From: a virus
Direction: 5' to 3' (one strand)
Length of the DNA: 43,691 bases
Virus record (IMG/VR): IMGVR_UViG_3300025154_000178
Location: 1-43,691 of that record
Below, in pieces: positions 6,585 through 27,452 of the stretch. Numbering within the stretch: position 1 is the stretch's first letter; the number at the start of each line of letters is the position of its first letter. Made by a program: the position numbers and the translations under genes. The notes under the pieces were generated by a model. It was not told the origin of the DNA, made no database searches, and saw nothing but the letters and a program-made list of their open reading frames with translations.

Positions 6585-6595
6585 AGGTGGACACG

Positions 6596-6772: not shown

Positions 6773-6774
6773 CC

Positions 6775-7119: not shown

Positions 7120-7120
7120 G

Positions 7121-8803: not shown

Positions 8804-8817
8804 AACGAGGTAACAAA

Positions 8818-9276: not shown

Positions 9277-9284
9277 TTCCAAAT

Positions 9285-9331: not shown

Positions 9332-9354
9332 CCCATGCTAAAGGAGAAAACGGC

Positions 9355-9705
9355 ATGAAAGTCAAGAAAAACAAGTTCACAATTTTTGAAGAGTTTGAGG
9401 GTGCAAAATTTGAGTTTTGCCCGCTTACCCCTGGTGCGCTCGGCAGATTGATTGACCTTGGAGCGCAGGGACGGGGTGAAGAGCTTAGGATTCAGCAGGC
9501 CATGGACGGCATTGTCGGGTGGTCAGAAGTCTATGATGACGATGATAAACCCATTCCGTACAGCGACAAACTGAAGCAGAAACGCGAGGCGCTATCAGCC
9601 TTTCTTGAGCATGTTGAAGGGTTCGCGGTATTCGTAGCCGACTCGATAAATAAAGCCGCTGCAGCCAAGCAGGAGGCGGAAGAGGCACTGACAAAAAACT
9701 CCTAG
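9355..9705 (+). CDS. Tail assembly chaperone, short form (gpG-like)
   Basis: A 116-residue protein in the position of lambda gpG. It binds the tape measure during tail assembly and is not part of the finished virion. It is helical and acidic, with FEFCPLTPGALGRLIDLGAQ and a C-terminal Ala/Glu-rich helix (NKAAAAKQEAEEALTKNS). ATG 9355 follows AAAGGAGAAAA; a GTG at 9301 lies in a hairpin region and is not supported. The last codons contain a perfect -1 slippery heptamer, so a fraction of ribosomes should continue into the longer form. Confidence 0.85.
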   Translation: MKVKKNKFTIFEEFEGAKFEFCPLTPGALGRLIDLGAQGRGEELRIQQAMDGIVGWSEVYDDDDKPIPYSDKLKQKREALSAFLEHVEGFAVFVADSINKAAAAKQEAEEALTKNS

Positions 9706-10046
9706 AGCACGTCTCGGGCCTGGTGTTCGTCTCGTCGTCAGGTGTCGATGACGAGACAGGGACACCAATCCGCTGCGAGGCGTGCAGGACGATCAACCGA
9801 AGGAAGGGAATCGAACCAGACTGCATAAGCTGCATTCCTCCTTTGATGCAAAAAAACGTGGAAGGGTTCAACCTTTGGCGAATGGTCCAAGGTCAGTACA
9901 GATCGGCAGGAGCAGGACCGTCGGGAGAGTTGGACGTTACCGCGATTTCACACGCGATGGACAAGTTAGAAATGGATGACCCAACCGTAATGTATCGGGT
10001 CATTTTAGTAGGTCGGGAAGTGGCGAAACTCAGAAGGACGGAATGA
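9355..10046 (+). CDS. Tail assembly chaperone, -1 frameshift form (gpGT-like)
   Basis: Predicted fusion of the gpG-like protein with the following -1 frame. Zero-frame codons AAA AAC at 9694-9699, preceded by A, allow slippage, giving TKN then LLEHVSGLVFVSSSG. The downstream frame has no stop between 9699 and 10046 and has no convincing own start (only a GTG at 9723 without a good ribosome site), as expected of a T domain. The extension holds a four-cysteine pattern (CEAC and CISC) that may bind zinc. It ends in an ATGA overlap with the next start. In lambda, the T domain recruits major tail protein to the gpG-tape measure complex. Confidence 0.8.
9693..9699 (+). promoter_or_regulatory. Programmed -1 ribosomal frameshift site
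   Basis: A AAA AAC in the correct zero frame of the short chaperone, the canonical X XXY YYZ heptamer, four codons from the TAG stop. A perfect 8-bp stem, 9729-9736 with 9750-9757, lies about 30 bases downstream. That is further than usual for a stimulatory structure, and its role is uncertain. Confidence 0.82.
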
Positions 10047-10339
10047 AGATACCCAGCGTATACGTTGAAATTAGGGGTGACTCGACCCAACTGCGGAAGG
10101 ATATAACCGCAGCGAAGCAGATTGTCACAGAATCTGCCAAGGGGATGAGCAACGCCCTTAATAATGCGTTATTAGTAGGTCGGGAAGTGGCGAAACTCAG
10201 AAGGACGGAATGAAGATACCCAGCGTATACGTTGAAATTAGGGGTGACTCGACCCAACTGCGGAAGGATATAACCGCAGTGAAGCAGATTGTCACAGAAT
10301 CTGCCAAGGGGATGAGCAACGCCCTTAATAATGCGTTAT
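10005..10339. repeat. 167-bp tandem duplication at tape measure start
   Basis: Bases 10005-10172 are repeated at 10172-10339 with an offset of 167. Only one difference is visible: C at 10113 against T at 10280, which changes Ala to Val. Each copy holds the end of the chaperone T frame, the AGAAGGACGGA ribosome site, and the first 43 codons of the tape measure. Because 167 is not a multiple of three, the first tape-measure start is put into the T frame of the second copy. Near identity implies a recent event or, less interestingly, an assembly artefact. Confidence 0.95.
10043..10213 (+). CDS. Chimeric 56-residue ORF created by the duplication
   Basis: Starts with the same 43 residues as the tape measure (MKIPSVYVEIRGDSTQLRKD onward, with Ala in place of one Val) and then, across the repeat junction, reads the last residues of the chaperone T frame (LVGREVAKLRRTE) before stopping. 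It keeps the full ribosome site and overlaps its neighbours by ATGA on both sides, so it should be translated between chaperone and tape measure. Any function is unknown. It carries tape-measure N-terminal residues and could compete for partners, or be inert. Confidence 0.6.
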   Translation: MKIPSVYVEIRGDSTQLRKDITAAKQIVTESAKGMSNALNNALLVGREVAKLRRTE

Positions 10340-13300: not shown

Positions 13301-13758
13301 TGGCCAGCACGGTTCAGGATATGGGGTCTATTTCCCAGCAGGCCGCGAATAAAATATCGGGAGCCTGGGCGTCGATCGGGGGCATCTCGTCTGATGCAAA
13401 GTCATTCGGCGCGGGCTATGTTATCGGGCCGTCGACCGGAAGCACCTTTGCACATGCTGACGGTTTTGTCACCAAGAGGGCGACATGGTTTGGCAATCAC
13501 GAAATCGGCGAGGATGGAACAGAGGCGCTTTTGCCTGTCCCTGGTGGGCCAGATTACTTTTCGCGGCAGGATAAACGACTCGACAAAATCGAACAGATGA
13601 TATCGTCAATGTCAGGTGGATCTGGGCCGATAACCATAGTCCTTGAGGTTGAAGGCGAGGCAGTTGCAAAAAAGATAATACCAAGGATCGATCAACACGT
13701 AGCCGACAAGGCAAGACGCGGGCAGCTCTCGCAAAGGACGGCTTATGCTACTCGTTGA
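10210..13758 (+). CDS. Tail tape measure protein
   Basis: Sets tail length and acts during DNA injection. At 1182 residues it is the largest protein here. Residues about 165-340 match the conserved tape-measure N-terminal domain (VDSLKRSFVAITGSTEGMES, LADSYRQLTAST, MEELKNQLGDSLPGA, LLPKMAEELHKMYG). A long charged helical/coiled-coil region follows (about 430-600), then glycine/alanine-rich hydrophobic stretches around 725-760 and 845-870 that could cross a membrane, and a C-terminal MSSMSGGSGPITIVLEVEG segment. The start lies in the second copy of the 167-bp duplication. Its end overlaps the next gene by 14 bases. Tail length estimates should use this ORF, not the upstream copy. Confidence 0.93.
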   Translation: MKIPSVYVEIRGDSTQLRKDITAVKQIVTESAKGMSNALNNALSPGQISGGINKLIGNLGTLSRASDQTSKQFDSLGVDLKDLQRITGITAGSFATLQSKMMATKAAKLQERALRDIATAANLTEKEIRELGQQFGLSAAQIKSVSASTHQASGSMTLLGGAARTALAYLSVYQVYEFGKAVLDTGIKVDSLKRSFVAITGSTEGMESEFAFMKQTAAETGQNMYALADSYRQLTASTQDTILEGQKTRDLFQAMSEASAVLGLSNERVELSMKAFAQMAAKGVVQMEELKNQLGDSLPGAVNIAARAMGVSQAALMKMSAAGELLAVDLLPKMAEELHKMYGVAANVAALESGQAAVNRLSQAWTEFKNNLYDNETAVASINLITKALDGAIRMQQAHANSKGIGGLLGSSKGIGEQLGEMRAQQEAALAIAGEYAVGREAIAAESAKRVQAIETGLSIALKSHKEQEYQYYIDAEKAKADAVVKAYDEQAKASNKAFTNQGKAEAKAYDAVAENRKRLAEELTDALAKEGKTQTQIEIYELKKRYAENLKIAGNNIELAKMATQVYEAELKKRAGADRDYNAGWLAFQNKQQQTFVDGWQGAAERRLAIDESANKELENNTSETTSVIVSEWSNAYASIQSSLADMIYEFDFSMDSILDIFKRMLAEMAAAIIMSGVKNAFLNMFDGNAATSAWGGMISGITGAIGKGDKSPSGTPSVGTAGAAGWGTIGGTVAVAGGAYGMYAGAKNIKDGNAGVGALQTGLGAYSAYKGAVTLGIVEKGAITEAAKLFAAKLGYAATQTGVGTVATESTFAIGKGAVAAQTTGTGTGAATGASASSYGASAAGAAAYAVPIAAAVMVAMGAYQKSQRPQAENEIDKRGITPGDLGQFYEGWRSIKDTIVETIPGISQYEQALYDANSGLLVATSATSTLALQYNASAEAGHQWEMALHVGGEATRNAIIASEEYANALGVSGEGMGKAAEIAYVERDAMEWLSDTLNGTADAAGNLSAEGEGLSTAAMNAASSTAIMASTVQDMGSISQQAANKISGAWASIGGISSDAKSFGAGYVIGPSTGSTFAHADGFVTKRATWFGNHEIGEDGTEALLPVPGGPDYFSRQDKRLDKIEQMISSMSGGSGPITIVLEVEGEAVAKKIIPRIDQHVADKARRGQLSQRTAYATR

Positions 13759-15274
13759 GATGAAAATAAACGGTGTCTGGCATTTACTCAGTAATGATTA
13801 TCACGACCTGCCTGAAGGATTTTACGACGGCTACATTGCCAGCCTTGGCCAGTTGCGGATCGCGACGAGAAAACCATACGGCGGGATCGTAGAGGCGAGT
13901 TATGGCCAACTCGATCTCCTGCCGACGCCTTTCACCCTCCCCGGCAACTGGCCGCCGCCTCGGTCCTGCGCGATAAAAATCAGCATCGGCACACCCGGAA
14001 CATCATCTGTCGTCTCGTATCCCGGCAGCGCACTGGTTGACGAGGGTGGAGACTCCCCGACAGATGGAACGGCCATACTCGTTGACGATGGCGCGGCTTT
14101 GGGGATCATTCAAAACCCATCAACGATTGAACTGATTGTTGAGGGTACCGCGCACCTCCGCGCACCGTCGCGCGACAGCGTGAAATATGACATTTACGGC
14201 CCGCAGATTGAAACTCGGGTGACGGATGCGAAATACACCGGGACGCTGCAGGAGGTTTTCGCCGCAGCCTGCATTACCCTTGGGCTGGCGTTTGATTACA
14301 CTTATGCCCGGGCGGTATCTCCAGTGGTGGATTACACAGCGGACGGTGAACGGCTTTTGACTGACAATCTCTCTGTGATGGCGGAGTTTTTCAGCCACCG
14401 GGCCCCCATCGAAAACGGCACTCTGTACCTGATTGACTGTTTGCTCGACAACGGGCCAGTGCTTGAATTGACCGAGTTTGATATTTTCCCCAGCTCGTAT
14501 CCGGCGCCCGCTCCTATCAAAAGAATAACCGCGAAAGTTCAGGCCGAAATCTGGCAATACCGATGGGTTCTCACGGCGAACCAGGGCGCAACAGTTTGTG
14601 CGATCGCTGAGATTGAACTGAGAACAAAAGTGGACGGCTCGGACGTTTCCGGGACGGCGACATTTACGGCGTCCAGCACGTCAGGCGCAAACGTACCGGC
14701 GAACCTCAATGACAACGACAATAATACGTTGTGGGTATCAACAATTGCTCCCTCAGAAAACCTGTACGTGCAGGCCAGCTATGGCGGCAAGATCAAAATC
14801 ATTGGATACACTTTCCGGGCTCCGACTCTGAACTTTGCCAGAATGCCGACAGAGTGGAAAGTGCAAGGCTATGATCTCGAGACAAGCACATGGCGGACGA
14901 TCAAGGAAGAAATAACCGAGGACGATTGGACGGCTGGCGAGGTGAGAAAATTCAGTATCGCGCAGCCCGAGTGGGAGGTTGTCGTTGCCGGGAGCCATTC
15001 ATACGGCGAGACATTAGACATCTCACCGGCATGTCAAACCACGCGAGCACTTATCCGGCCAGCATTGACTAATATCAAAACCATCATGGAGCGAATGCAA
15101 ATTCAGTTGACAAAACCGCTCTCCGGCGTGCCGAAATTCGGCCAGAAAATAGAACTGCTTGATGAGAGCATGCCGGTGCCCTCGAACGTATGGGGTCGGG
15201 TTGCTGAACAGGTCTACGATTGGGACGGCGAGCAGTGCATCGTTATCGGCGAGGGGGCCATTACAGCCGCATGA
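13745..15274 (+). CDS. Tail tip protein with discoidin-like domain
   Basis: A 509-residue protein directly after the tape measure, where distal tail or baseplate hub proteins are encoded. The N-terminal part (HLLSNDYHDLPEGFYDGYIA) looks like a virion attachment region. Residues about 300-400 resemble an F5/8 type C (galactose-binding, discoidin) domain: DNDNNTLWVS, then GYTFRAPTLNFARMPTEWKV. The C-terminal part has KFGQKIELLDESMPVPSNVWG. A role in surface glycan contact is inference from that domain. ATG 13745 has AAGGACGG upstream; ATG 13760 has no clear site. Confidence 0.65.
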   Translation: MLLVEMKINGVWHLLSNDYHDLPEGFYDGYIASLGQLRIATRKPYGGIVEASYGQLDLLPTPFTLPGNWPPPRSCAIKISIGTPGTSSVVSYPGSALVDEGGDSPTDGTAILVDDGAALGIIQNPSTIELIVEGTAHLRAPSRDSVKYDIYGPQIETRVTDAKYTGTLQEVFAAACITLGLAFDYTYARAVSPVVDYTADGERLLTDNLSVMAEFFSHRAPIENGTLYLIDCLLDNGPVLELTEFDIFPSSYPAPAPIKRITAKVQAEIWQYRWVLTANQGATVCAIAEIELRTKVDGSDVSGTATFTASSTSGANVPANLNDNDNNTLWVSTIAPSENLYVQASYGGKIKIIGYTFRAPTLNFARMPTEWKVQGYDLETSTWRTIKEEITEDDWTAGEVRKFSIAQPEWEVVVAGSHSYGETLDISPACQTTRALIRPALTNIKTIMERMQIQLTKPLSGVPKFGQKIELLDESMPVPSNVWGRVAEQVYDWDGEQCIVIGEGAITAA

Positions 15275-16053
15275 AAATAATTGTCAGAAATTCCATAACA
15301 GAAATTTCGGCCACATCAGAAGCAACGAATTTTCCTGCATCCAATTTGCTCAACGACTCTATCATAAAAGGATGGAAAGCCGCGAACTCTGGCGTCACTG
15401 CCGCAACGCTTACGGTGAAAACAAGAGGGATAACTGGCGGATTTGGCCTTGTCGGGATTGTTGCTGAAACCGTGCATGTTGAGGTTTCCGGCAGATCCGG
15501 AATATCCTGGCAGAACGTCAATTGGCAAAACATCAACTGGGGTGGAGATGCTGGGACAGTTGCAATATCGGAACAGCTTATACGGTACTCAAAAGATGTC
15601 GAGGCGCAGCTATGGGTCGATTTTGCTGAAATTGAATCACCTGTAGAGATCACAATTACACTTTTGAAATCCAACACAAACCCATTCTGGCTCAAGGCCG
15701 GTGTGCTGGTTGTCGGGCAAGTATTTTCATTCCCAGACCCGAAAGCTGGTTTTGAGGAAGGTCTCGACGACAAATCTATTTACCGGGAACTGTCAAACGG
15801 CGCCGAATGGTCGCTTGACCGTCCGAGGTTGCGGACGTTTTCGGCGCTGATCGACATGGAGCGGGACGGCTATTTTTATCTCTTTATGCGGAACATTGCG
15901 AAACGGTTTGGCCGCCGGCCGATGATGATATCTCTCACTGACAAAATGGTCAACGAATGGGTGCTTTACGGCAGGTTTGTGGGAATGCCGACAGGATCAC
16001 ACTATCACAGGACTCGATCGAGTCTACAGGTTGCATTTAAAGAGGTGGTATAG
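15271..16053 (+). CDS. Tail tip-associated protein
   Basis: A 260-residue protein that starts in an ATGA overlap with the previous gene. The N-terminal part (ISATSEATNFPASNLLNDSI) resembles the carbohydrate-binding-like segment of tail proteins, followed by repeats in WQNVNWQNINWGGD. The C-terminal half (ERDGYFYLFMRNIAKRFGRR and the closing SSLQVAFKEVV) looks like a baseplate structural domain. I do not recognise a named family. A start upstream at 15220 is rejected because it lies inside the preceding gene with no ribosome site. Confidence 0.6.
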   Translation: MKIIVRNSITEISATSEATNFPASNLLNDSIIKGWKAANSGVTAATLTVKTRGITGGFGLVGIVAETVHVEVSGRSGISWQNVNWQNINWGGDAGTVAISEQLIRYSKDVEAQLWVDFAEIESPVEITITLLKSNTNPFWLKAGVLVVGQVFSFPDPKAGFEEGLDDKSIYRELSNGAEWSLDRPRLRTFSALIDMERDGYFYLFMRNIAKRFGRRPMMISLTDKMVNEWVLYGRFVGMPTGSHYHRTRSSLQVAFKEVV

Positions 16054-16731
16054 ATGGCAACAACTTTTCAGGGCTGGAAATTTAAGCAAGCAACCGGCGG
16101 CGTCTTGGACGCTATGGACTTCGAAGACGGCGCAACGTTGACAGATGGCGCTGTTGCGATTGTCACGGATGGCGGATCTTTATCGATTTACGAAGGTGAC
16201 GCGGACAGCGGACTGGTCGCAGACGGCGTACACGTTGTCGCTCCTGTTACCAACGCTGGTGATTATCGGTGGATTCTTCAGCGGGTCATCACAAACGACA
16301 TGCCGGTAGGATCGATCATAGGATTCTGCCCTGGGTATTTCACCGCATCTAATAATACTGGATTTGTTGCGGTGCTTCCGAATACGGTTGCAGGGGTCAA
16401 CGCCCTTTTCAATCCCCTTGGCTTTTATGTAATGGACGGTGGGCTTCTTAACCTTTCGGGGTCAGCGATTTTCGACGGTGCGGGAAGAAGGCTTCCAAAC
16501 GGAACAACCGACGTTTATCTGGTTGGCAATGACACCGCAGGAGAAAAGGTGGGCAGCAACACTTCGTCGCATATCCACCAGACAAACGATGCCCAGCCTG
16601 GGGAAGGTGCGCCAGCTGTTGGTTTGGTTGCCGGCGGCGTCCCGCATGATCACGGCGGGACAGACGGCCCATCGGTGACGAATATTCAACCGAACTCATT
16701 GACAATATTCTGGCTTATAAAGGCGATCTGA
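16054..16731 (+). CDS. Tail fibre-like protein with collar-type tip
   Basis: A 225-residue protein. The C-terminal half has the look of a phage tail collar or fibre tip: PVGSIIGFCPGYF, a central FDGAGRRLPNGTTDVYLVGN, then two His-x-His motifs (SSHIHQT and PHDHGGT), and a final SLTIFWLIKAI. In long tail fibre tips, such His pairs bind metal ions along the fibre axis. It is therefore a candidate receptor-binding protein. AGAGGTGG precedes the ATG. The last base of its stop begins the next gene. Confidence 0.7.
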   Translation: MATTFQGWKFKQATGGVLDAMDFEDGATLTDGAVAIVTDGGSLSIYEGDADSGLVADGVHVVAPVTNAGDYRWILQRVITNDMPVGSIIGFCPGYFTASNNTGFVAVLPNTVAGVNALFNPLGFYVMDGGLLNLSGSAIFDGAGRRLPNGTTDVYLVGNDTAGEKVGSNTSSHIHQTNDAQPGEGAPAVGLVAGGVPHDHGGTDGPSVTNIQPNSLTIFWLIKAI

Positions 16732-18329
16732 TGAAAAAACTACTTCCGCTTTTTCTTCTCCTGGCGCTGGCCAGCTGCTCGACAAAAACCGCGCAGGTTG
16801 ACAACGCAGGCCCGGTTGATGTCAAAGAGCAACCTGGCAAAGCGTATCCCGATCCAGGCCCCGAGCCATACGATACTTTTTCTCCGCGTGATCTACCAAT
16901 GGTGGGCGCAGGCTCGACATTCAGAATCAATGAAAAGAGCGCAAAAACCACGCTCGTTGCCGGAGACTATTTCCTGATCGAGAGCTACCCATCACTGACA
17001 ACGATGCGGACCAGCACCGATAATATTGCAACCTACACCCTGAACAAAATCAAGACGCAGGCAGGTTTTGAGTCCATACTTTTCGAGCTTCCCGAGGGTG
17101 GCGGAACCGGGACGCCTGGCGGAACCGACACGCAGATACAGTTCAACGACTCTGACGTTTTCGGCGGCGATTCTGGCCTCCTGTTCAACAAGACCACAAA
17201 TGCGCTCACGGTCAGCGGGGCCGTATCAGCTCCCTCTTATGTCTCAAGCGGCGCAGACGGTACCCACGGCCTCGATATCACCAACACGGTACCGATAACC
17301 TACACGCCGACATCTGGTCGGATCTCGTGGTATGGCGACAGGCTTCGCGAGGCTGACGGTGTCGATTGGGACAACTATTTCCTCGAAGCTGCGGACCTCG
17401 GAATATTGATTCAGGGGTATGACACCGACCTGGCCATTGCGGCTGGCATGAGCGCGGCTGGCAACTCCAAATACTTTGGGACAAACGGCGGCGGCACTCC
17501 GGGAATTTATGATCTCCCGACCGGATCCGGCGGCGGGGTTGAATCGGTATCGACTGACCCAGCATCACCGTCAGCTGGCTATGTCTGGTACAACACGACT
17601 GACCATAAGATCAAGGTCCGCGAGGCTGGCGGGACCACGGTATTTGAGGGAGTTTATACCGCAGACACCCCGACGAGCGGGCCGGAGTTTGAAAGCATAG
17701 CGGTTGGCCTGGGCGATACAGGGGCCACATCTTTATCCACATCCACAAGCCTTGTGGTGCCTGAAGATGGGCTGATAGTGGCGGGAGTCCACGCCTACAC
17801 CGGAGTGACCTATGATATCACCGGGGTGACCTGTGGATCAAACACCCTTTCGCTAAAAAAGACAGTTTCCATCGGCGGCGACGAGTTCAAAGTTCAGGTG
17901 TGGTCATTGGCGAATGCCGTAGCCTACACAGGCACATGCACAGCAACGTTCAACGAAAGTTTACCCTCAAGGGGAATAATTGCCGCTGCTTACTCGGGAG
18001 TTGCGACAACAACGCCGCTCGACAAATCAAGCTGCAATGTGGCTGACTGTGATGAACTGACAGGCGCGACTGTGAACCGTACAGCGGTGGACACCGCGAC
18101 CACAGCGCAGGCTGACGAACTTCTAGTTGCTTTCGAACTATCATGGGATGTCACGCACGCATACACCGCGCAGAACGGCTACACGCGACGGACAGCCGCC
18201 AGCGGGGTGCAGTTCAGCTTGTTTGACAAAACCGTATCGGCAACCGGGGCATATCCGGGCGGAAATTTTGCAACGGTGGATTCGGCTGATAGCTATGTTT
18301 CAATTTTTCTGACCTTCAAGGCTCTGTAA
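16731..18329 (+). CDS. Tail fibre-like protein with lipoprotein signal peptide
   Basis: A 532-residue protein with an N-terminal lipoprotein signal, MKKLLPLFLLLALASC, with lipid-attachment Cys16 followed by Ser, which in Gram-negatives favours the outer membrane. The rest is unlike a host lipoprotein. Residues from about 124 have the standard fibre module GGTDTQIQFNDSDVFGGDSG and FNKTTNALTVSG seen in many tail fibres, and the C-terminal half is a Gly/Thr-rich beta region. The start overlaps the preceding gene in TGATG with AAAGGCG upstream. An export signal on a fibre-like protein is odd, because tail proteins normally assemble in the cytoplasm. Confidence 0.75.
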   Translation: MKKLLPLFLLLALASCSTKTAQVDNAGPVDVKEQPGKAYPDPGPEPYDTFSPRDLPMVGAGSTFRINEKSAKTTLVAGDYFLIESYPSLTTMRTSTDNIATYTLNKIKTQAGFESILFELPEGGGTGTPGGTDTQIQFNDSDVFGGDSGLLFNKTTNALTVSGAVSAPSYVSSGADGTHGLDITNTVPITYTPTSGRISWYGDRLREADGVDWDNYFLEAADLGILIQGYDTDLAIAAGMSAAGNSKYFGTNGGGTPGIYDLPTGSGGGVESVSTDPASPSAGYVWYNTTDHKIKVREAGGTTVFEGVYTADTPTSGPEFESIAVGLGDTGATSLSTSTSLVVPEDGLIVAGVHAYTGVTYDITGVTCGSNTLSLKKTVSIGGDEFKVQVWSLANAVAYTGTCTATFNESLPSRGIIAAAYSGVATTTPLDKSSCNVADCDELTGATVNRTAVDTATTAQADELLVAFELSWDVTHAYTAQNGYTRRTAASGVQFSLFDKTVSATGAYPGGNFATVDSADSYVSIFLTFKAL

Positions 18330-20512
18330 TGAGACGGCTCATAATAGCACTCATATTCCTGACCGCAGGGGCAGCGCACGCCACAACTCCGACCATCTCT
18401 TTGGTGTCCGGTACCGTCTCGACCGGGGCGACGCTGACCATCACCGGCAGCAACATGATGGATGAGGACAAATCCGGCTGGCAATCCAGATTTACATCCG
18501 GGTCGGCCTACGGGTTTGAAGGCTCCACGGTGACCGCTGACGGCTATTATATGGGTGGCGGCAATGTGATTGATCCGGTTTACGATTCATCTGTCAAACT
18601 GAGCGGCAACAAATCCCTGAAGGCTCGCGGGCAAGGTGCCTGGGAAGGACCGAACGGACCTGCCAGCTTGATCTATTTTCCCGGTGGTGGCGGTGCCGAA
18701 ACCGGCGATATTTGGATCAGGAAATATGTCCGCATGGATATCCTTGGCGGGACATGGCCGTCCGAGTATCAGAAAATTATCGATAGCCAGGGGTCGGCAG
18801 GGCAGTACTATCTAGACACCATCGGCAACAGCACGTTCATGGCAACCTGGCAGATCGGCGGCAGCAACACGGCTCACTATGTCGATGCTCCGGGCGGAGG
18901 CTTGCAATCCGGGAGATGGTACGCTGTCGAACTGCACTGGAAAGCGAGTCCGTCACGGATTTACGAGCTGTACATCGATAATACGCTGATGCTCACCGGA
19001 TCAACGATGACCACGGCGGACCTGACATGGCTGCTCGTCGGCTTGATCAATTACGGTGGTACTTCTTCCGCTTTCTCGGAAAATGTTTATTACGATAATT
19101 TAGCGGTAAGCTCGAGCAGGATCCGGCCATCATCGATTATAGAGGTTTCTGGTGACGGAATAACCTGGAAATATCAGGAGCCAGTTGCCCTCGGCGACAC
19201 ATCATCCCAGATAAAACTCGACCTGTCTGGCCTGACCGGAACCAATTACCGAATGCGGGTCACAAACAACCGGCAAGAGGTCAGTTCGGTTTATTATCTC
19301 AGCGGCGGGACAAACGATTCAACGGCGCCGGTGGTGGCAATCTCCACAACGGATCCGTCAAACATCACAGCAGTACCCTTGCTCGTCTCCGGGACTGCAT
19401 CGGATGGGGTCGGCGTTGTCGGCTGCAAATGGCGGCTCGGATCACAACCTGATGCGCTTAATGGAACCTCCATGGTGGGGACTACATCATGGTCAGGGAA
19501 TGCCAATTCGTTTTCGTCGGGGTCGAATACTCTCTATGTCGGATGCTATGATCTCGCAAACAACTGGGGATACGACTCAATCACGGTGAATTACACACCT
19601 GAAACCTTGCCGGCGGTAACAAGTATCAATGAATCATTCGAGGACAATTCTTTCGGCCTGCGGAACTGGTACGACAACACCAATCACGGAACGATAGCAA
19701 CAGGCGGCTATTCTGGCAACTGCCTGCAATGGTCCTGGGCGCAGGGCGAAGCACAGCCGACGAACGGTGGATCGATGAGACGGTTGTTCGATCCTGCCGA
19801 CCGTCTCTATGTCTCTTTTTACGTGAAACTTCAGACCGGCTGGCGGGGGTCGCAGCAAACCTATCATCCGCACATGATCACCATTCCCTCGGATCTAGAC
19901 GAAGAATACGCACCTCTGGCGAACAATTACCTCAACACGTATATCGAATTCAACAGTGACCTCGGATCGCCGTATACCATCCGTCCAGCCATGGCCATTC
20001 AGGACGAGAAAAGGGTAAACACGGCCAGCGGTACACCTCCGCTTGATCTGTCGGCAATCACGGAAAACCGGAGCGTGGCCTACTGCAACACGCCTGTGCC
20101 TGATGGCGCTGCTGGTATCTGCTACGCAGATAATCCGTATTACAGCGCGAACGTATGGAAGGCATCGAACGCCTCGGTATCCACAAACTCCTGGCATCAT
20201 GTCGAAGTCTATCTACAGATGAACACCATCGACGGCGGCATCGGCCAGAGCGACGGCATTATGCGCGAGTGGGTTGATGGCGTGCAGGTCCTGAATCACA
20301 CGGACGTGATGTATCGCACCGGGCAGGACGCAACGAAGAAGTGGGCGCAGTTTGTTTTCTCTCCCTGGATAGGAGACGGGTCGCCTATCGCGCAAACGAT
20401 GTGGATTGACGAACTGACGGTCGGGACGACATCGCCGTATGTGGTTATTGAACCGGGGCCGGAGCCTTGGCGGGTAAGCGTGCCGAAATCATTTAGCGGG
20501 AGCATCCAATAA
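18329..20512 (+). CDS. Exported multidomain carbohydrate-binding-like protein
   Basis: A 727-residue protein with a Sec signal peptide, MRRLIIALIFLTAGAAHA, cut near residue 18. After a short IPT-like start (TISLVSGTVSTGATLTITGS), residues about 47-267 and 430-715 look like two concanavalin-type jelly-roll domains (RWYAVELHWKASPSRIYELY; SWHHVEVYLQMNTIDGGIGQ), separated by an Ig-like bacterial repeat at about 324-425. This resembles secreted polysaccharide-binding or lyase proteins of environmental bacteria. Activity cannot be assigned. It starts in a TAATG overlap in the middle of the tail region, so it is co-expressed with late genes. Confidence 0.65.
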   Translation: MRRLIIALIFLTAGAAHATTPTISLVSGTVSTGATLTITGSNMMDEDKSGWQSRFTSGSAYGFEGSTVTADGYYMGGGNVIDPVYDSSVKLSGNKSLKARGQGAWEGPNGPASLIYFPGGGGAETGDIWIRKYVRMDILGGTWPSEYQKIIDSQGSAGQYYLDTIGNSTFMATWQIGGSNTAHYVDAPGGGLQSGRWYAVELHWKASPSRIYELYIDNTLMLTGSTMTTADLTWLLVGLINYGGTSSAFSENVYYDNLAVSSSRIRPSSIIEVSGDGITWKYQEPVALGDTSSQIKLDLSGLTGTNYRMRVTNNRQEVSSVYYLSGGTNDSTAPVVAISTTDPSNITAVPLLVSGTASDGVGVVGCKWRLGSQPDALNGTSMVGTTSWSGNANSFSSGSNTLYVGCYDLANNWGYDSITVNYTPETLPAVTSINESFEDNSFGLRNWYDNTNHGTIATGGYSGNCLQWSWAQGEAQPTNGGSMRRLFDPADRLYVSFYVKLQTGWRGSQQTYHPHMITIPSDLDEEYAPLANNYLNTYIEFNSDLGSPYTIRPAMAIQDEKRVNTASGTPPLDLSAITENRSVAYCNTPVPDGAAGICYADNPYYSANVWKASNASVSTNSWHHVEVYLQMNTIDGGIGQSDGIMREWVDGVQVLNHTDVMYRTGQDATKKWAQFVFSPWIGDGSPIAQTMWIDELTVGTTSPYVVIEPGPEPWRVSVPKSFSGSIQ

Positions 20513-20603
20513 TTATTAACAGAATGGAAATCTGATTAACAAAGTGTGCATCATATAGTATGTTAGATGCATCGGATACACAACGACATAGCGGAGGCCG
20601 ACA

Positions 20604-20693
20604 ATGAGCAATGAGTGGAAAACAAACATAGGATTGATTGTTATGATCATCATCCTTGCCTCGGCACTGTACAACTTCTTGACAGTATCATAG
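20604..20693 (+). CDS. Small membrane peptide, 29 residues
   Basis: MSNEWKTN followed by one hydrophobic span, IGLIVMIIILASALYNFL, preceded by GCGGAGG at the right distance. It is too short for family assignment. The 90 bases upstream contain TGCATC/GATGCA (20547-20552 with 20566-20571), a possible operator or hairpin, and no clear promoter. Position at the head of the lysis-type cluster suggests a membrane role during lysis, but that is inference. Confidence 0.55.
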   Translation: MSNEWKTNIGLIVMIIILASALYNFLTVS

Positions 20694-20701
20694 GAGACAT
20701 T

Positions 20702-21460
20702 ATGGAAAGGCGAATTTATGGCGTTATCGGCGGAATGTGCTTCTGGGCGGCTGCGGTGATTGCGGTTTTTGCTCTCAACGGGTGCTCAGCAAATATCAGA
20801 TTGACAGATATCACGTTTGAACAGAACGCAGACAACGGCTCCGATGTGGCGATGAAGACAGACGCCAGCGGGGCGACAAATACCACGGGTACCGACCAGG
20901 TGGCGGACGGCAGGATCAACCTTGCGGCAGCAATGGAAGGCGCACAGGCCGCACTGCAGGGGATCAAGGATTCTCTTGCAGAGTACAAGCCTGACCTTTC
21001 TAAGAAGGATTCTGAGAACCAGACCGACAACAGCCAAACCACAACCATCTATAACGAGGCCAAGCTTGCTCCTGGTGAAGACCTGACGGATACGGTTGAC
21101 CCGGGCAAAGTTGAGCCAGTTCCACCGACTGAGCCAAACCCGGGCGAGTATAAGAACAAGGCGACATATACCAGCTATGGCCAAAGAAACGGCGGACGCG
21201 AGGCATGGCGCATCCCTCACAAGGGGCCTGAGTTTGGCAAGCTGATCAAGGTTGTCTTCTCTGATGGTCACACGGTTTTTGTCAAAGACACTTCGCATAA
21301 TTACCGAGAGAGTGACGGTTTTGTCTTCAAACCGGGGATCGGACCCAATGGTGAGGGGTCTGCGGACACCGGGACGGCCCATGGTGGCGTCTACCTGCAT
21401 GCTCCTTACGGCAACAAATCGAAACAGGTAACGTTTTACTTTGACGGCGATTTGAAGTGA
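20702..21460 (+). CDS. Lipoprotein of unknown function
   Basis: A 252-residue protein with a lipoprotein signal: a hydrophobic span (FWAAAVIAVFALNGC) with lipobox LNGC and Cys28. Next comes a low-complexity linker rich in Asp, Ala and Thr, a proline-rich stretch (PVPPTEPNPGEYKN) and a compact C-terminal domain with YTSYGQRNGGREAWRIPHKG and HGGVYLHAPYGNKSKQVTFY. I do not recognise the domain. ATG 20702 follows ATAGGAGACATT; an upstream GTG at 20615 overlaps the 29-residue gene and is rejected. It could be a lysis, outer-membrane or superinfection-exclusion protein. Confidence 0.7.
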   Translation: MERRIYGVIGGMCFWAAAVIAVFALNGCSANIRLTDITFEQNADNGSDVAMKTDASGATNTTGTDQVADGRINLAAAMEGAQAALQGIKDSLAEYKPDLSKKDSENQTDNSQTTTIYNEAKLAPGEDLTDTVDPGKVEPVPPTEPNPGEYKNKATYTSYGQRNGGREAWRIPHKGPEFGKLIKVVFSDGHTVFVKDTSHNYRESDGFVFKPGIGPNGEGSADTGTAHGGVYLHAPYGNKSKQVTFYFDGDLK

Positions 21461-21552
21461 TAACCTGCGCCCGCTGCGGCTGCCAATACCATGGCCGACA
21501 GCACTGCCCCGAATGCGGATGGCCAGCCGGAGACGAAAACCCTGATGATTGA
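21457..21552 (+). CDS. Mini zinc-ribbon protein, 31 residues
   Basis: GTG start in a GTGA overlap with the lipoprotein stop. The product has C4-x2-C7 and C17-x2-C20 with HCPECGW, a minimal zinc ribbon and little else. It resembles the 25-residue zinc-ribbon product encoded at 22130 (ICLACGW), which suggests a paralogous pair. The tight overlap and Cys spacing support translation. Role unknown. Confidence 0.55.
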   Translation: MITCARCGCQYHGRQHCPECGWPAGDENPDD

Positions 21553-21739
21553 ACGGGTAATTGCAGACGATAACATGAATGAACGGCCTTACCGAATGGT
21601 CAAGGACCGGTATGCGACATGCGACGAGCCATTTTGTTTTGCCTACGACTACCAAGGGAAAGAGCCACAATTAACATGCAAACATTATTCACAGATGAGC
21701 GGGGTTAAAAAATGCGACAGGGCGAAGATACAACGGTAA
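21545..21739 (+). CDS. Small Cys-containing protein
   Basis: A 64-residue protein starting at ATG 21545, which overlaps the stop of the mini zinc ribbon and has CCGGAGA upstream. An earlier ATG at 21491 has no ribosome site. Cys residues in CDEPFC, TCKHYSQMSG and KKCDR could form a metal site. It overlaps the start of the holin-like gene. Function unknown. Confidence 0.6.
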   Translation: MIERVIADDNMNERPYRMVKDRYATCDEPFCFAYDYQGKEPQLTCKHYSQMSGVKKCDRAKIQR

Positions 21740-21981
21740 TGGAAGCGCTCAACAAGGGCGAGATCGTATCAAACGCGGCGGAACTCAAAACCACCGGGAT
21801 CACCGCGAACAAAATCGCGATCATCCTCTCCCTATTCCTCGCTGCCCTAAAAGCCTTTGACATCGACATCCCGGCAATCGATGACGACACACTGATCATG
21901 ATATCTGGCGGTGTCGCGGCGCTGCTTCTGTGGATGAACAATATTATCGCCACGGTCACCTCCCGGAAGATCGGCAAATGA
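21712..21981 (+). CDS. Putative holin
   Basis: An 89-residue protein with two hydrophobic spans (KIAIILSLFLAALKAF and LIMISGGVAALLLWMNNIIATV) and a short charged end (SRKIGK). That size and layout fit a two-span holin, the inner-membrane pore that times lysis. It has a second in-frame start at ATG 21739, in a TAATG overlap with the previous stop, giving forms that differ by nine residues, as in dual-start holins. No strong ribosome site picks between them. Neighbouring genes are also small membrane proteins. Confidence 0.6.
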   Translation: MRQGEDTTVMEALNKGEIVSNAAELKTTGITANKIAIILSLFLAALKAFDIDIPAIDDDTLIMISGGVAALLLWMNNIIATVTSRKIGK

Positions 21982-22133
21982 AAGTGCAAGAAAAGTCCCG
22001 GACACCCGGGCCTCCCCCTCGGTTTACCATAAAAGGAGATGAGGGGGCGACTGATTCACCGCTTTTTGAAATCGCAATTATAATCCTGATACTGTCAATC
22101 ATCGCCGGCCTGTGCCTGGGGTGGATACCATGA
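21978..22133 (+). CDS. Small C-terminally anchored membrane protein
   Basis: A 51-residue protein with a charged, proline-containing N-terminus (KVQEKSRTPGPPPRF) and a single hydrophobic span near the C-terminus (IAIIILILSIIAGLCLGW). It starts in an ATGA overlap with the holin-like gene. It could be a second holin component, an antiholin or an unrelated membrane peptide. No family recognised. Confidence 0.6.
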   Translation: MKVQEKSRTPGPPPRFTIKGDEGATDSPLFEIAIIILILSIIAGLCLGWIP

Positions 22134-22207
22134 GATGCCCTGATTGCGGGGCCAGATTGGAGCCAGGCGCAGGAATATGCCTGGCCTGTGGATGGGAAAG
22201 CTGTTGA
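22130..22207 (+). CDS. Mini zinc-ribbon protein, 25 residues
   Basis: ATGA overlap with the membrane protein stop. The whole product is one zinc ribbon: C3-x2-C6, ten residues, C17-x2-C20, then GWESC. It resembles the N-terminal ribbon of larger bacterial membrane proteins, but here stands alone. The related 31-residue gene is 0.6 kb upstream. A free zinc-binding peptide in a lysis-type cluster is unusual; role unknown. Confidence 0.5.
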   Translation: MRCPDCGARLEPGAGICLACGWESC

Positions 22208-22247
22208 TATTACATTCCCGGCAGTTTGCCGGAAAGGAACGGAGCGA

Positions 22248-22652
22248 ATGCCGGATACTGGAAACGTAGGGGTTGTCTCAAGCATTGCGGCAATCATCGG
22301 GGCGATGGTCGGTGGAGCAATATCCTTAATTGGCTGGGGTAAAAAAATCGAACGAGTAGAATCCGGACTTGCTCGGAGCCATGAGCGGATTGACAAGACC
22401 GAGAAAAAGGCAGAGGAACTTGAACACGCTCTCAAGAGTATGATGGCCAGCTTCACCCGAGCTGACGGGGAACCAAGGTTCATTTCTAAGCCAGCGTGTA
22501 TTGAACTGCAGGCAAAATGCCATGAACTCCTTGCGGAGAAATTATCCGGTGGTGAGAAGCGGTTCGGCGACCTCGAGGCAGAGATCAGAGACATAAAAAG
22601 CGCACAGGAAAGAAACTTTAAAGACATCCTTGATGCTATAAAAAATAAATAA
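22248..22652 (+). CDS. Membrane-anchored coiled-coil protein (spanin/holin-like cluster)
   Basis: A 134-residue protein with one N-terminal hydrophobic span (VVSSIAAIIGAMVGGAISLI) followed by a long charged coiled-coil region (RIDKTEKKAEELEHALKSMM, then ELLAEKLSGGEKRFGDLEAE). This is the layout of inner-membrane spanins and of several phage membrane proteins of unknown role. ATG 22248 follows AAAGGAACGGAGCG; a GTG/ATG region at 22188 overlaps the zinc-ribbon gene and has no site. A spanin role is plausible, but no outer-membrane partner is certain. Confidence 0.6.
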   Translation: MPDTGNVGVVSSIAAIIGAMVGGAISLIGWGKKIERVESGLARSHERIDKTEKKAEELEHALKSMMASFTRADGEPRFISKPACIELQAKCHELLAEKLSGGEKRFGDLEAEIRDIKSAQERNFKDILDAIKNK

Positions 22653-22669
22653 CAACAGCGAGGTAAGAA

Positions 22670-23050
22670 ATGGCTGGATCATGGGCGGCAAGCAGTGAAG
22701 TAAGCGGCTACCTAAACGGGACGCTAAACAGACCGCAGGGCATGTCAATTCCCTTCACATCGGACGCGGCGGACGCCTCCGTGCCGGATCTGCAGATTGC
22801 GGGCATATCAGGGCATCTTGAATCTGTAGAAGTGGTTTTTGACGGAACAGACACGCCGACATCGGTAATCACAACGGTCAAAACAGTGGATGATACCGCA
22901 CTTCCCGGCTTCCCCTCGGCGACATTGAGCGCAAGCGGGTGGGCGATGGAACCGGGTGAAACTCCACTTTGCTTCTCTGGCGGACTGAAGGTTGCGCTTA
23001 CGGTGGTCGGGAACGGCAAAAAAGGCAAGGTAATCCTTAATATCCTCTAG
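22670..23050 (+). CDS. Beta-rich structural protein
   Basis: A 126-residue protein, Gly/Ser/Thr-rich, with alternating strands and a C-terminal KVALTVVGNGKKGKVILNIL. The style resembles small virion-associated proteins such as the one at 6775. It opens a second block of fibre-type genes after the small membrane cluster, with GAGGTAAGAA before the ATG. Function unknown, probably virion-related. Confidence 0.55.
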   Translation: MAGSWAASSEVSGYLNGTLNRPQGMSIPFTSDAADASVPDLQIAGISGHLESVEVVFDGTDTPTSVITTVKTVDDTALPGFPSATLSASGWAMEPGETPLCFSGGLKVALTVVGNGKKGKVILNIL

Positions 23051-23058
23051 GAGCAACT

Positions 23059-23532
23059 ATGAACTTAGCTCACAGGATAATGCTGTTTTCGGGGGTTCGA
23101 CTACCGCAAGACGGCATAGTCGCTGCTTTTTTGATCGCCAACGATTTGCAAGATAATATCGGCTTATTGAGCATAACCCTGACAACCGGAACTATTGAAA
23201 ATCTCGCTGAAGCGACCTGGCCATTCCCCTCGAATGCTGTCACTTTGCAGGCCGATTCGGACATGGGCGGCGGGATTATGTTCGACCCAGAAAACGCCAT
23301 GGCCCCTTTCGTCCGGTCTGGCGCTGAATGGTATGCGCTGCTTAATGTCGATTTCGCCTGGATTGGGTTTCACCCGACGAGGGGTGGAGTTATTATTTAC
23401 GATGCTAATAAATCGGCAAAGGCAGCGCAGATACAGAACTACCTCGGAAGATATTATCCAGCTATTCCATTCACCTTCCAAGACTCATCTGCCTACACCT
23501 TCCAGAATGGCACAACTTATGATTTCCAATAG
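23059..23532 (+). CDS. Probable virion protein with C-terminal FQ repeats
   Basis: A 157-residue protein with no motif I recognise. Its C-terminus has a short repeat pattern, FTFQDSSAYTFQNGTTYDFQ, in which a strand ending in FQ recurs about every 8-10 residues. This looks like an attachment or oligomerisation tail on a fibre-associated protein. TAGGAGCAACT precedes the ATG. It sits directly before a classic tail fibre gene. Confidence 0.5.
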   Translation: MNLAHRIMLFSGVRLPQDGIVAAFLIANDLQDNIGLLSITLTTGTIENLAEATWPFPSNAVTLQADSDMGGGIMFDPENAMAPFVRSGAEWYALLNVDFAWIGFHPTRGGVIIYDANKSAKAAQIQNYLGRYYPAIPFTFQDSSAYTFQNGTTYDFQ

Positions 23533-23541
23533 GATAACGAT

Positions 23542-24954
23542 ATGGCAAAATTAACAGACCAGACAGCACTGACTACTCCCAACAAGCTTGACGTTATCCA
23601 TGTTGTCGATGTTTCTGACACCGCTGATGATGCAGCTGGGAGCAGTAAAAAAGTTGCCTTGCAGCACATCCCTTCGGCAATCGCTACCGAAATTAAAACG
23701 GCATACGAGGGAAATGCGGATACCAATGTCCTCACTGACGCCGAAAAGACATTACTCGGCAACACGTCAGGCACCAACACAGGTGATCAAACTCTGCCAA
23801 CTGCACTAGCTGATCTGTCGGCAGATGCGACGCACCGCTTGGTAACAGATACTGAAAAATCAACGTGGAATGGCAAGCAGGATGCTTTGCCCGCAGCAAG
23901 TCAAGCTGAGATGGAGGCCGGAACAGAAACAGCCGTCAGGTCTATGTCTCCGCTGAGAGTAAAGCAGGCCATTGATGCACTCGGCGGGAGTGGTGGTGCT
24001 ACTGCCATAAATGATCTGACTGATGTTGATACCACGGGCAAGGCAGCAGGGCGTATTCTCGTCTTTGATGCCTCCGGTAATCTTGTTGTCGGTGACGACC
24101 AAACCGGGGAAGCCGGAAGCGGTATCACCACAGTAACGGCTGGGACAGGCTTGGATGGTGGTGGTTCAACCAGTTCTGTTACTCTCAGTATTGAACAAGC
24201 AATTCTTGATGCAATAACAGCAAATACTGCCAAAGTGAGTTTTGACCCAGCCTCCAGCGCTCGGCTTGCCGACACCAGTGGAAGCAATACTGGGGATCAA
24301 GATTTAACAGGAAAACAAGACATACTTGTAGAGGGGCCATTTGTTGACGGAGACAAAGATCTGCTGGACAACGCACAACCCTCCCTTGGGATCGTTGGCA
24401 CGGCAGGAATGTATTTTATTGAAGAGTCGGTCCTCGGTGTCACAGGAAAAGGGGTCCCTGGAGCATGGAAATTGTTTTACACAGACGGCTCTGGTGGAGG
24501 CATAAAAGAGCTAAATATAGGAACCACAGGACATCTCCTAAAGTCAAGCGGGACTGGAGGCGCTCCGTCATTTGTTGACCCGAACACACTAAATAACCTC
24601 ACCCTCTCCGCAGCCGCAGCAAATGCATTCAGTGCTGGCTCAGTCGGCTACCTCCACACAGACGGCACTGTTATCCTCGCCGACGCAGATACTGAGGCGA
24701 CGACAAAACCTTTACTGCTTATGTCTACAGCAAACATATCAGAAGGCGGTTCTGGAGTATTCAGTCGTGGAGGTATGGTGACCGTTGCAGGCCACGGCTT
24801 TTCTGTCGGATTGCCGATATTTTTATCCGAAACGGCAGGAGGTTTAACCCAGACGGCTCCAGGGACCGGGAAATTTGTCAGATTGATTGGCTATCCGACT
24901 GACGCAAACACCATATTATTTAATCCTTCTAATGTATGGGTGGAGGTAGCATGA
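23542..24954 (+). CDS. Tail fibre protein
   Basis: A 470-residue fibre protein. The N-terminus (KLTDQTALTTPNKLDVIHVV) is a common fibre start. Residues near 72 and 243 carry SGTNTGDQ-type motifs typical of phage fibre shafts. Then follow EAGTETAVRSMSPLRVKQAI, INDLTDVDTTGKAAGRILVF and a C-terminal domain with TANISEGGSGVFSRGGMVTV. No signal peptide. It probably contacts the host surface. Its stop overlaps the next gene start. Confidence 0.8.
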   Translation: MAKLTDQTALTTPNKLDVIHVVDVSDTADDAAGSSKKVALQHIPSAIATEIKTAYEGNADTNVLTDAEKTLLGNTSGTNTGDQTLPTALADLSADATHRLVTDTEKSTWNGKQDALPAASQAEMEAGTETAVRSMSPLRVKQAIDALGGSGGATAINDLTDVDTTGKAAGRILVFDASGNLVVGDDQTGEAGSGITTVTAGTGLDGGGSTSSVTLSIEQAILDAITANTAKVSFDPASSARLADTSGSNTGDQDLTGKQDILVEGPFVDGDKDLLDNAQPSLGIVGTAGMYFIEESVLGVTGKGVPGAWKLFYTDGSGGGIKELNIGTTGHLLKSSGTGGAPSFVDPNTLNNLTLSAAAANAFSAGSVGYLHTDGTVILADADTEATTKPLLLMSTANISEGGSGVFSRGGMVTVAGHGFSVGLPIFLSETAGGLTQTAPGTGKFVRLIGYPTDANTILFNPSNVWVEVA

Positions 24955-27110
24955 TGAAACAAATATTTTTAGCAGTTCTGTTGTTGCTCATTGCTCCGTC
25001 AGTAAGCGTTGGATTAACAATATTCGGTAAGGATATTCAGTCAATACTAGGGATAGATAGTCCTGCCAGGGTTGCAGGAGTGCAGAATGTAAGTCCTGCC
25101 CAAACATTAATATTGGAGGATAACACCAACAATTACACAATAGAGAATGATTATTATAAAGCGGTATTGCTAAAGGGCGGGCAATTTGGGTCAGGACTGG
25201 TAAGAGAGCTTTATGTTAAAAAAGAAGACTTGTCATGGTCACAAAACTTAGTATATGCCGGGGCATCATTGAACTATGGCCTCGGATATCTTGAGGGGGT
25301 TGGTGACGCGACCTCCAATAGGTACACTGGATTCAGTAATTTAGCCACAGTAGTAGTTACGTCACAGACCGCAACTGAGATAGTTATTACATCCACGCTG
25401 GCGAACTCGTTAGCCAGCAACTTGACAGAGATATGGACATTTTACGCTGGGCTTCCTTATTTTAAAAGCGAAGCGGTAGTGGAGAATATTAGTGGAAACT
25501 ATGTTACGAATCAATACCAGTTCCCACAAATGATAAACAGTACCCTGCCGAGTGTATGGACAGGCACAGATGAGAGCGGCTCCGTTAAAACGTTTCCGAA
25601 TCAAGTTAATCAACCATTGTTTGGGCTCACGGATACTTACCCTTGGGTCAACTGGAGTTTTACCGGCGAAACAGTATCACTCGGAACTATTTTTACTGAC
25701 CTGCCCTATGGTGTTAATGCTGTTACTGGGGATTGGGCGTTTGAGTACCAATTAAATTTTAATCTTGGCGGTGGGTTTCAGGGTAATCCAACAAAACCAG
25801 GATTTTCTCGGTATCTAACCACAATGTATTACACATCAGATTCGGCATCAGATGCCAGTATCACTAGTTTTGCATCCTCTGAGTGGTCAGAGGGCGAGGA
25901 GATTGTAAAAACCGCTACTGTCCAGCAGGCAGCGCAGTATCTAACAAACGCATATGGACAGCGAGCAGGTATTTCTTCTTCTCTGGTTTCAGAACCTTAT
26001 TTTTTGGTGAGGCAAAACGCGTCTTCTGGTTTAACAACCTTGCCGCAATACACTACATGGATTTATTCTCCGCTTTTTGCTTTGCCGAAAAGCAGCCAAG
26101 TAAGCTGGGGCGCGGACTACACCTCCAACCTAGAGTTTACACTTAATTATAATAACGGGGCAACCGATTATACCTACGGTACAGTGTCAAGCGCCAGCGT
26201 CCAGAACGGAGCCACAACGTCTCTGACAAACAATGCGGCCAGTAGCGATGGAGAGGTGGCATATACTGTGACATTCGCGACATGGGATGACTCCGACAAA
26301 CTACAGATAACCGGGACGGCGTCTAATGGCGATGCAAGCTCAACAATAAAAGATATTTGGGCTAACATAGACGTGGTGCCGTTTTATGTTGAGGTTGAAA
26401 AAAACGCGGACAACTCAACAGATCAAATAAAAACACCTGCCAGTGACACATTAACTCAAAACGATGGACGGTGGGACACATATACCGGATATACCTCCCT
26501 GGGGATACACCAATATACACTTGTTTACCGTGATAACGGGGAAACTGTCCAGCCGCTAATGGTTAGTTGCCCAGCCATAATCCCAGGCAACCAGTACCGT
26601 GTGTATGCTGTGGTAAAGCAATCGTCAGCAGGAAGCGCCACCTATCAATACTCTCTCGATGGCATCACGTATACGCCTTTTGTTGTGCCACAGGGGGGGG
26701 TGGCAGCTCGTTATACTGCCGACCTAGGCACCATAACGATGCCAACGAATAATTTTTACATAAACGATGATGACTCAACGTCGGGAGCGGTAGATTATAT
26801 GTTTTGGGATAGGGTGGCTTTTGTCCCAATCATCAAGGAGATCGCCGCAGGACATTATGATTTGCAGTGGCACGATGAGATTCATGGCAATATTGGTGTG
26901 GGTATAAAAGTAAACACCCCGGCCGGAGCCACTATAACAACAGACGGACTCAATGTTTATTTAAACACCAACGAGGCGGCACAGAACACCACAACATTCA
27001 GCCACGCGTTTGATGTCGAGTTGCACCCGCATATCGGGCTATACGATCAATCGTCAGACTTTGGAACTTTACACACCAAAACAGAGATTACGTATCCGTG
27101 GAGGCAATGA
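24951..27110 (+). CDS. Large exported protein of the fibre block
   Basis: A protein of about 719 residues with a Sec signal peptide (MMKQIFLAVLLLLIAPSVSV) and no lipobox. The mature part is beta-rich: NNYTIENDYYKAVLLKGGQF and ELYVKKEDLSWSQNLVYAGA resemble the galactose-mutarotase/polysaccharide lyase type of sandwich, but I cannot name a family or an active site. The C-terminal part (AGHYDLQWHDEIHGNIGVGI) may be a separate domain. ATG 24951 or 24954 is likely because GGTGGAGG lies just upstream. The start overlaps the tail fibre stop. Confidence 0.6.
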   Translation: MMKQIFLAVLLLLIAPSVSVGLTIFGKDIQSILGIDSPARVAGVQNVSPAQTLILEDNTNNYTIENDYYKAVLLKGGQFGSGLVRELYVKKEDLSWSQNLVYAGASLNYGLGYLEGVGDATSNRYTGFSNLATVVVTSQTATEIVITSTLANSLASNLTEIWTFYAGLPYFKSEAVVENISGNYVTNQYQFPQMINSTLPSVWTGTDESGSVKTFPNQVNQPLFGLTDTYPWVNWSFTGETVSLGTIFTDLPYGVNAVTGDWAFEYQLNFNLGGGFQGNPTKPGFSRYLTTMYYTSDSASDASITSFASSEWSEGEEIVKTATVQQAAQYLTNAYGQRAGISSSLVSEPYFLVRQNASSGLTTLPQYTTWIYSPLFALPKSSQVSWGADYTSNLEFTLNYNNGATDYTYGTVSSASVQNGATTSLTNNAASSDGEVAYTVTFATWDDSDKLQITGTASNGDASSTIKDIWANIDVVPFYVEVEKNADNSTDQIKTPASDTLTQNDGRWDTYTGYTSLGIHQYTLVYRDNGETVQPLMVSCPAIIPGNQYRVYAVVKQSSAGSATYQYSLDGITYTPFVVPQGGVAARYTADLGTITMPTNNFYINDDDSTSGAVDYMFWDRVAFVPIIKEIAAGHYDLQWHDEIHGNIGVGIKVNTPAGATITTDGLNVYLNTNEAAQNTTTFSHAFDVELHPHIGLYDQSSDFGTLHTKTEITYPWRQ

Positions 27111-27113
27111 CCT

Positions 27114-27452
27114 ATGAAAATAGCAATTCTAGCGATGATGCTTTCCTTTTTGTGTGGTTCCGCCTTTGCCGGATCCTTGGAGTTTGAATGGGGATATCCA
27201 GCCGAAGCGCAGGCGCAAATAGTCGGTTTTAGACTTTACCGAGATGGCACCATACTTGAACCTGTCAGCATTGCAGCAACCGACAGAACAGCGACAGTCC
27301 CGAGGCAAACTGATAAGCGGAGCCACACTTATCATCTCACTGCATATTCGGCGGAGGATGAGAGCGGGCCGTCCGCTACAGCCATAGATGCCTATGTCGC
27401 AGCGAAGGTTGAGCCGATCACCGGGACGCTGACTATCAAGGTTATCCCGTGA
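27114..27452 (+). CDS. Small exported FN3-like protein
   Basis: A 112-residue protein with a signal peptide, MKIAILAMMLSFLCGSAFA, cut after residue 19, then a single fibronectin type III-like domain (EFEWGYPAEAQAQIVGFRLY, HTYHLTAYSAEDESGPSA). It is the last gene of the late operon and ends just before the terminator. Such domains often mediate weak glycan or protein contact. It is the fifth exported product of the region. Confidence 0.6.
   Translation: MKIAILAMMLSFLCGSAFAGSLEFEWGYPAEAQAQIVGFRLYRDGTILEPVSIAATDRTATVPRQTDKRSHTYHLTAYSAEDESGPSATAIDAYVAAKVEPITGTLTIKVIP

Follow-up and report, generated by a model that had tools for sequence, protein, structure and literature searches.

The window, a 43,691-base record from IMG/VR, belongs to an HK97-type siphophage as judged by its head and tail genes. 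TerL, portal, head-maturation protease, MCP, head closure, major tail protein and tape measure genes occupy positions 1059-13758, and the tail-tip genes (13745-16053) are followed by the region under study (16054-27452), in which the genes named below all lie on the plus strand. A RusA gene is found at 31857 and recombination genes (SbcC-like, RecT) from 33 kb onwards. Scans of the window for tRNAs and Rfam families were empty.

Export signals and start sites in the late region

An earlier note had proposed that five late-operon products carry export signals, lipoboxes in two and Sec signals in three, and had named signal-peptide prediction as the check. We scanned the 48 genes of the window with rules of our own thresholds that look for a positive n-region, a hydrophobic core and an AXA-type site or lipobox; calls thus rest on n/h/c-region and lipobox rules. 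Exactly the proposed genes were called, 16731 and 20702 with lipoboxes and 18329, 24951 and 27114 with Sec-type signals, each ORF lying where the note had placed it. The N-termini read MKKLLPLFLLLALAS/C for 16731 and MERRIYGVIGGMCFWAAAVIAVFALNG/C for 20702 (both SPII, the latter with lipobox LNGC), and MRRLIIALIFLTAGAAHA/TT for 18329, MMKQIFLAVLLLLIAPSVSVG/L for 24951 and MKIAILAMMLSFLCGSAFA/GS for 27114 (all SPI). The slash marks a cleavage site picked by eye; for the three SPI cases the scan puts it a few residues earlier. An n-region, core, lipobox and tether after the Cys, the sequence features of SPII substrates, are present in 16731 and 20702, and the n, h and c regions and AXA-type site of Sec/SPI substrates in the other three, the site of 24951 (SVG or SVS) being weaker.

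Controls indicate how often such calls arise. Two of 170 spurious ORFs of the window DNA were called, with lipoboxes in 0 of 170, and 80 viral loci gave 25 calls among 1046 genes, several of them evidently false. In lambda the scan called lom, bor, Rz and Rz1, marked rexB as TM and passed over all virion proteins; late genes gave no calls in HMO-2011 (0/32) or phi38:1 (0/27). Taking the spurious-ORF rate, five or more calls in 48 genes have a chance of 2.5e-4; taking the viral-locus rate, evident false calls included, the chance is 5.7e-3.

SD-like sites lie ahead of all five signal-bearing starts, and no SD-preceded start was seen just downstream of a signal in any of the five. Four of the genes are coupled to their upstream neighbor: the first base of 16731, like that of 18329, is also the final base of the stop codon before it (1 nt overlap), 24951 overlaps 23542 by 4 nt (ATGA), and 27114 starts 3 nt after the preceding gene. 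The fifth, 20702, has no upstream overlap and lies immediately behind a 29-codon ORF (20604-20693, MSNEWKTNIGLIVMIIILASALYNFLTVS) with an SD and one predicted TM segment. The proposed overlap with tail genes therefore holds for 16731, 18329 and 24951 but not for 27114 or 20702. Their placement among tail genes also needs qualification, since 20702 heads a lysis-like cassette and the genes around the five (16054-27452) mostly have weak tail matches or none.

Architecture and composition of the five proteins

The lipoprotein gene 16731 (16731-18329, 532 aa, LIPO call, SD aaagg) directly follows a gene for a possible collar or short-fibre protein that lacks a signal (16054-16731; phrog_38064, 0.024, a weak match). 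Behind its lipobox (LAS/C) come a Pro-rich tether of ~40 residues, a linker that by eye resembles fibre N-termini and, at about aa 128-166, a tail-fibre module; the C-terminal part contains four Cys. The module, GGTDTQIQFNDSDVFGGDSGLLFNKTTN, is common to 80 viral loci, the best segments being 38-76% identical, and its assignment to fibres comes from a PHROG match (phrog_9942) to the same region of L080:9806-11041. It resembles the QIQFN-type tail-fibre modules of environmental phages; most ORFs with such modules start like ordinary cytosolic virion proteins, unlike 16731. Judged by its sequence, 16731 is a chimera that holds a phage tail-fibre module. Cys16 is followed by Cys at 368, 403, 435 and 440, with 368-403 and 435-440 as possible pairs.

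The protein encoded at 18329 (18329-20512, 727 aa) comprises a Sec signal (AHA/T), a TIG-like start, a region without match, a bacterial Ig-like part and a polysaccharide-lyase-like C-terminal part. All of its Pfam matches fall under the gathering score (TIG, 0.0022; Big_7, 0.006; PF14099, 3.6e-5; PF21294, 2.1e-4); against PF14099 it reaches 24.2-24.3 bits with a cut-off of 29.9, so we call the protein lyase-like only. The C-terminal part resembles the polysaccharide lyases of PF14099 and PF21294, though at sub-threshold scores, and a Halorussus polysaccharide lyase matches weakly (E 3e-3 over 14%). Overall, 18329 looks like an extracellular carbohydrate-active protein. Four of its five Cys could pair (366-406, 586-598). 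Such pairs in mature 16731 and 18329 would suit an oxidising compartment, an agreement that is suggestive only. AlphaFold2 models of parts of 18329 and 24951, made without an alignment, had pLDDT values of 30 and 33 and were discarded.

The gene 24951 (24951-27110, 719 aa, Sec signal, SD ggtggagg) starts within the stop of 23542; its product has no recognised domain and no homologue among phages, plasmids, IMG/VR patterns or the PDB. The short product of 27114 (27114-27452, 112 aa) consists of a Sec signal (AFA/G) and one short beta-type domain, fibronectin-III-like by eye, with no significant family match. Gene 23542 (23542-24954, 470 aa) encodes a fibre-type protein without a signal (phrog_19691, virion structural, 6.6e-4; phrog_32345, tail fibre, 0.002).

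GC3 in the late region is mostly 0.51-0.64, with 0.60 for 16731 and 0.64 for 18329. Only 24951 (0.44) and the adjacent fibre gene 23542 (0.43) differ, and this shared low GC3 suggests joint acquisition, 23542 being the likely co-acquired partner of 24951. The suggestion that the five are simply co-opted host surface proteins is thus only partly borne out: 16731 holds a phage fibre module, and 16731, 18329 and 20702 are not marked as foreign by their composition.

The lipoprotein 20702 (20702-21460, 252 aa, SD atagg) is the first gene of the lysis-like cassette (20702-22652). Its lipobox (LNG/C) has the less usual Asn at -2 and is followed by a long tether (about aa 29-140) and a C-terminal part without match; there is no PHROG match to the protein. 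The cassette also holds a small membrane protein that is a holin candidate by position and hydrophobicity (21712-21981), with no family match, and an Rz-like spanin candidate with one N-terminal TM and a coiled coil (22248-22652; phrog_739, E 4.7e-4). Neither the cassette and its surroundings nor the other genes scanned yielded a recognisable endolysin domain. Two tiny frames noticed by eye among the lysis-like genes, 21460-21554 and 22130-22207, would encode Cys-rich zinc-ribbon-like peptides (VITCARCGCQYHGRQHCPECGWPAGDENPDD and MRCPDCGARLEPGAGICLACGWESC).

These data bear on whether the five form one set. In one tentative account, which we regard as possible but on the unlikely side, 20702 is a lysis protein, the outer-membrane partner of 22248, while 16731 with 18329 and, separately, 24951 with 27114 were picked up at different times as accessory surface proteins with no relation to one another. 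The place of 20702 at the head of a cassette with holin and spanin candidates, the low GC3 of 24951 and 23542 relative to 16731 and 18329, and the absence of detectable homology among the five all speak for it. Its weak point is 20702 itself, which as a lipoprotein in this position fits an o-spanin but at 252 aa with a C-terminal domain is unlike the known ones. This account is compatible with action of the five at the host envelope, the reading we prefer, and the difference is mainly one of grouping.

Relatives of the phage and signals on virion proteins of other contigs

Full-length relatives of the five proteins were not detectable in the collections searched. Apart from the fibre module of 16731, nothing was found by tblastn of the five against INPHARED phages or by IMG/VR pattern scans for 16731, 18329, 20702 and 24951; plasmid searches with 18329 and 24951 gave only a weak lyase match to 18329. 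PDB searches with 16731, 18329 and 24951 returned nothing useful, and none of the five (0/5) matched NCBIfam. A search for relatives anchored on the tail-tip genes of the window was unsuccessful, and a genome-contig scan yielded two candidate-phyla MAG contigs, both without signal-bearing genes.

Contigs with a TerL 73-85% identical to that of the window were found. L095 and L097 are the two whose records run past the tape measure and take in the full tail tip. In both, the tail tip of the window is replaced by a long gene of gpJ size, and no late gene carries a signal, which argues that the tail tip and signal cassette of the window are a replaceable module. Compared with the window, both contigs display a clean module swap following the tape measure gene.

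We then turned to the 80 viral loci, which had been collected via the fibre module and not selected for signals. The module ORF is readable from its start in 77 of them and carries a signal in three (L022, L078 and L080), in L078 on a fibre of 2174 aa; a probable signal from a GTG start was noted by eye in L044. Signal calls on the fibres of L023-L025 and on several minus-strand ORFs were judged false. The wider pattern accordingly concerns three to four metagenomic contigs.

Contig L080 (IMGVR_UViG_3300025087_000179) encodes seven signal-bearing proteins, six of them in the late cluster and the seventh close to the end of the contig. Among them is its sole SU10-type head-tail adaptor (L080:57-773; PF24175, E 1e-29), the domain of which starts at the end of the signal, at residue 23; a collar protein (PF07484), a fibre and further late proteins also bear signals, while the candidate MCP, assigned by position, has none. 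In L022, an MCP (5376-6692; PF13252, phrog_334) begins MKKIGMFVLALLFGVSGWTDE, and the same gene occurs at L082:5900-7216; its N-terminus has no Ala at -3/-1 and is rated by the scan as a TM-like segment only. No close relatives of this MCP were found. The gene after it and a fibre gene of L022 also begin with signal-like sequences, and in L044 N-termini that look signal-like by eye were seen on an adaptor-like product (14469-16025) and on a fibre ORF that bears the module (8321-11149). The L080 adaptor and the L022 MCP each have an SD-like site ahead of the signal start and none ahead of the internal ATG with which the mature part begins.

Of the six SU10 adaptor matches sampled, that of L080 alone showed a signal (the start of one of the others is uncertain). 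HMO-2011 gp44, which is related to L080:770-3565 over residues 158-302, lacks one as well, and for these reasons the prefix looks derived and added. Signals on virion proteins of tailed phages, as read from these sequences, are rare yet recurrent and look like added prefixes. Our literature search, with most subscription papers outside its reach, turned up no account of tail-fibre, adaptor or capsid proteins that bear signal peptides. According to one paper, the DGR target proteins of phages have no signal peptide, in contrast to those of bacteria (PMC6199706).

The earlier note had also raised an unusual assembly route, and an SU10-type adaptor, a collar protein and probably an MCP of unrelated contigs, with their Sec-type signals, lend it some substance. 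Applied to the window, 16731, 18329, 24951 and 27114 would be fibre or spike parts of the virion that mature at the inner membrane or in the periplasm by virtue of a signal prefix and join particles at lysis. Although the tail-fibre module of 16731, the location of this gene after the tail tip, the signals on the L080 adaptor, collar protein and fibre, the L022 MCP and the L078 fibre, and the placement of SD-like sites at signal starts speak in its favour, we think this rather unlikely: an exported adaptor or capsid protein could not meet the cytoplasmic portal and DNA, the candidate MCP of L080 itself lacks a signal, and the L022 MCP is only TM-like. The broader proposition, that several unrelated tailed-phage lineages put Sec or lipoprotein signals on ordinary virion components (fibres, collar, adaptor, even MCP) as part of maturation at the membrane or outside the cytoplasm, the five being one instance, seems to us doubtful.

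Cytoplasmic assembly could be squared with signals on adaptor and capsid proteins if the hydrophobic N-termini did not serve export at all, and either had come in by domain shuffling and were tolerated or acted as uncleaved tethers that concentrate late proteins at the inner membrane during assembly. For the window this is improbable. Its signals are complete (n, h and c), with near-ideal sites (AHA/T, AFA/G, LAS/C) and lipoprotein tethers, and neutral drift would erode such signals, of which there are five in one genome.

Proposed action at the host envelope

The reading we prefer, with about even confidence and on the strength of predicted features, is that the five proteins are genuine export substrates and exert their action late in infection, at the host envelope or outside it. 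18329, 24951 and 27114 would be Sec/signal peptidase I substrates, and 16731 and 20702 Sec/signal peptidase II substrates. They would be made late, probably from transcripts shared with tail and lysis genes and in part through translational coupling to them, before leaving the cytoplasm. In a Gram-negative host, the Ser after the lipid Cys of 16731 and 20702 would predict outer-membrane anchoring under the Lol +2 rule, although this rule may not apply here. The fibre-like module of 16731 and the C-terminal domain of 20702 could then be displayed and bind or mask surface glycans or receptors, and 18329 could bind or cleave surface polysaccharide. Jointly, they might block superinfection and keep progeny off debris and capsule at release.

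Several observations support envelope action. Signals are borne by 5 of 48 genes, lipoboxes are absent from the spurious ORFs, and the same scan picks lambda lom, bor and Rz1 and no virion protein. SD sites precede the signal starts and none was seen just after the signals. Long low-complexity tethers follow both lipid Cys, as in surface lipoproteins; 16731 and 18329 have pairable Cys, and 18329 has a carbohydrate-active look. The cassette is missing from the TerL relatives that reach the tail tip, as an accessory module would be, and 20702 heads a lysis-like cassette with a spanin candidate. Host-envelope action had been one of the options of the earlier note, and it accommodates the lipoprotein architecture, the possible disulphide pairs and the lyase-like domain. 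Against it, none of the five is backed by a relative of known function, the tail-fibre module of 16731 is real and needless for a pure envelope protein, and the lyase-like matches of 18329 lie under the Pfam gathering scores. Envelope action also fails to explain the signals on the L080 adaptor and the L022 capsid protein, so phage signals may have another use.

Known phage proteins offer partial parallels. Lambda Lom, an outer-membrane protein whose gene lies between J and the side-tail-fibre ORFs, is likewise a Sec-signal late-operon protein directly after the tail tip gene and may be taken, by analogy, as a precedent for the position of the five. In lambda, however, a single gene of this kind is found there, against five in the window, where lipoprotein and lyase-like architectures occur. 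Lambda Bor, the signal of which our scan calls, and Llp of phage T5, a receptor-masking lipoprotein, are phage-encoded lipoproteins like 16731 and 20702, but they are small, are not chimeras with tail-fibre modules and are not translation-coupled to tail genes.

Tailed phages are held to assemble wholly in the cytoplasm. A late cluster of export signals that includes a fibre module on a lipoprotein would point either to late envelope-modifying proteins of a new class, with their origin in the phage's own adhesion machinery, or to an extracytoplasmic step in assembly; if the latter is true, the textbook rule would have to be revised. For annotation, signal prediction is seldom applied to virion genes, and module-based "tail fibre" calls may label proteins that are exported.
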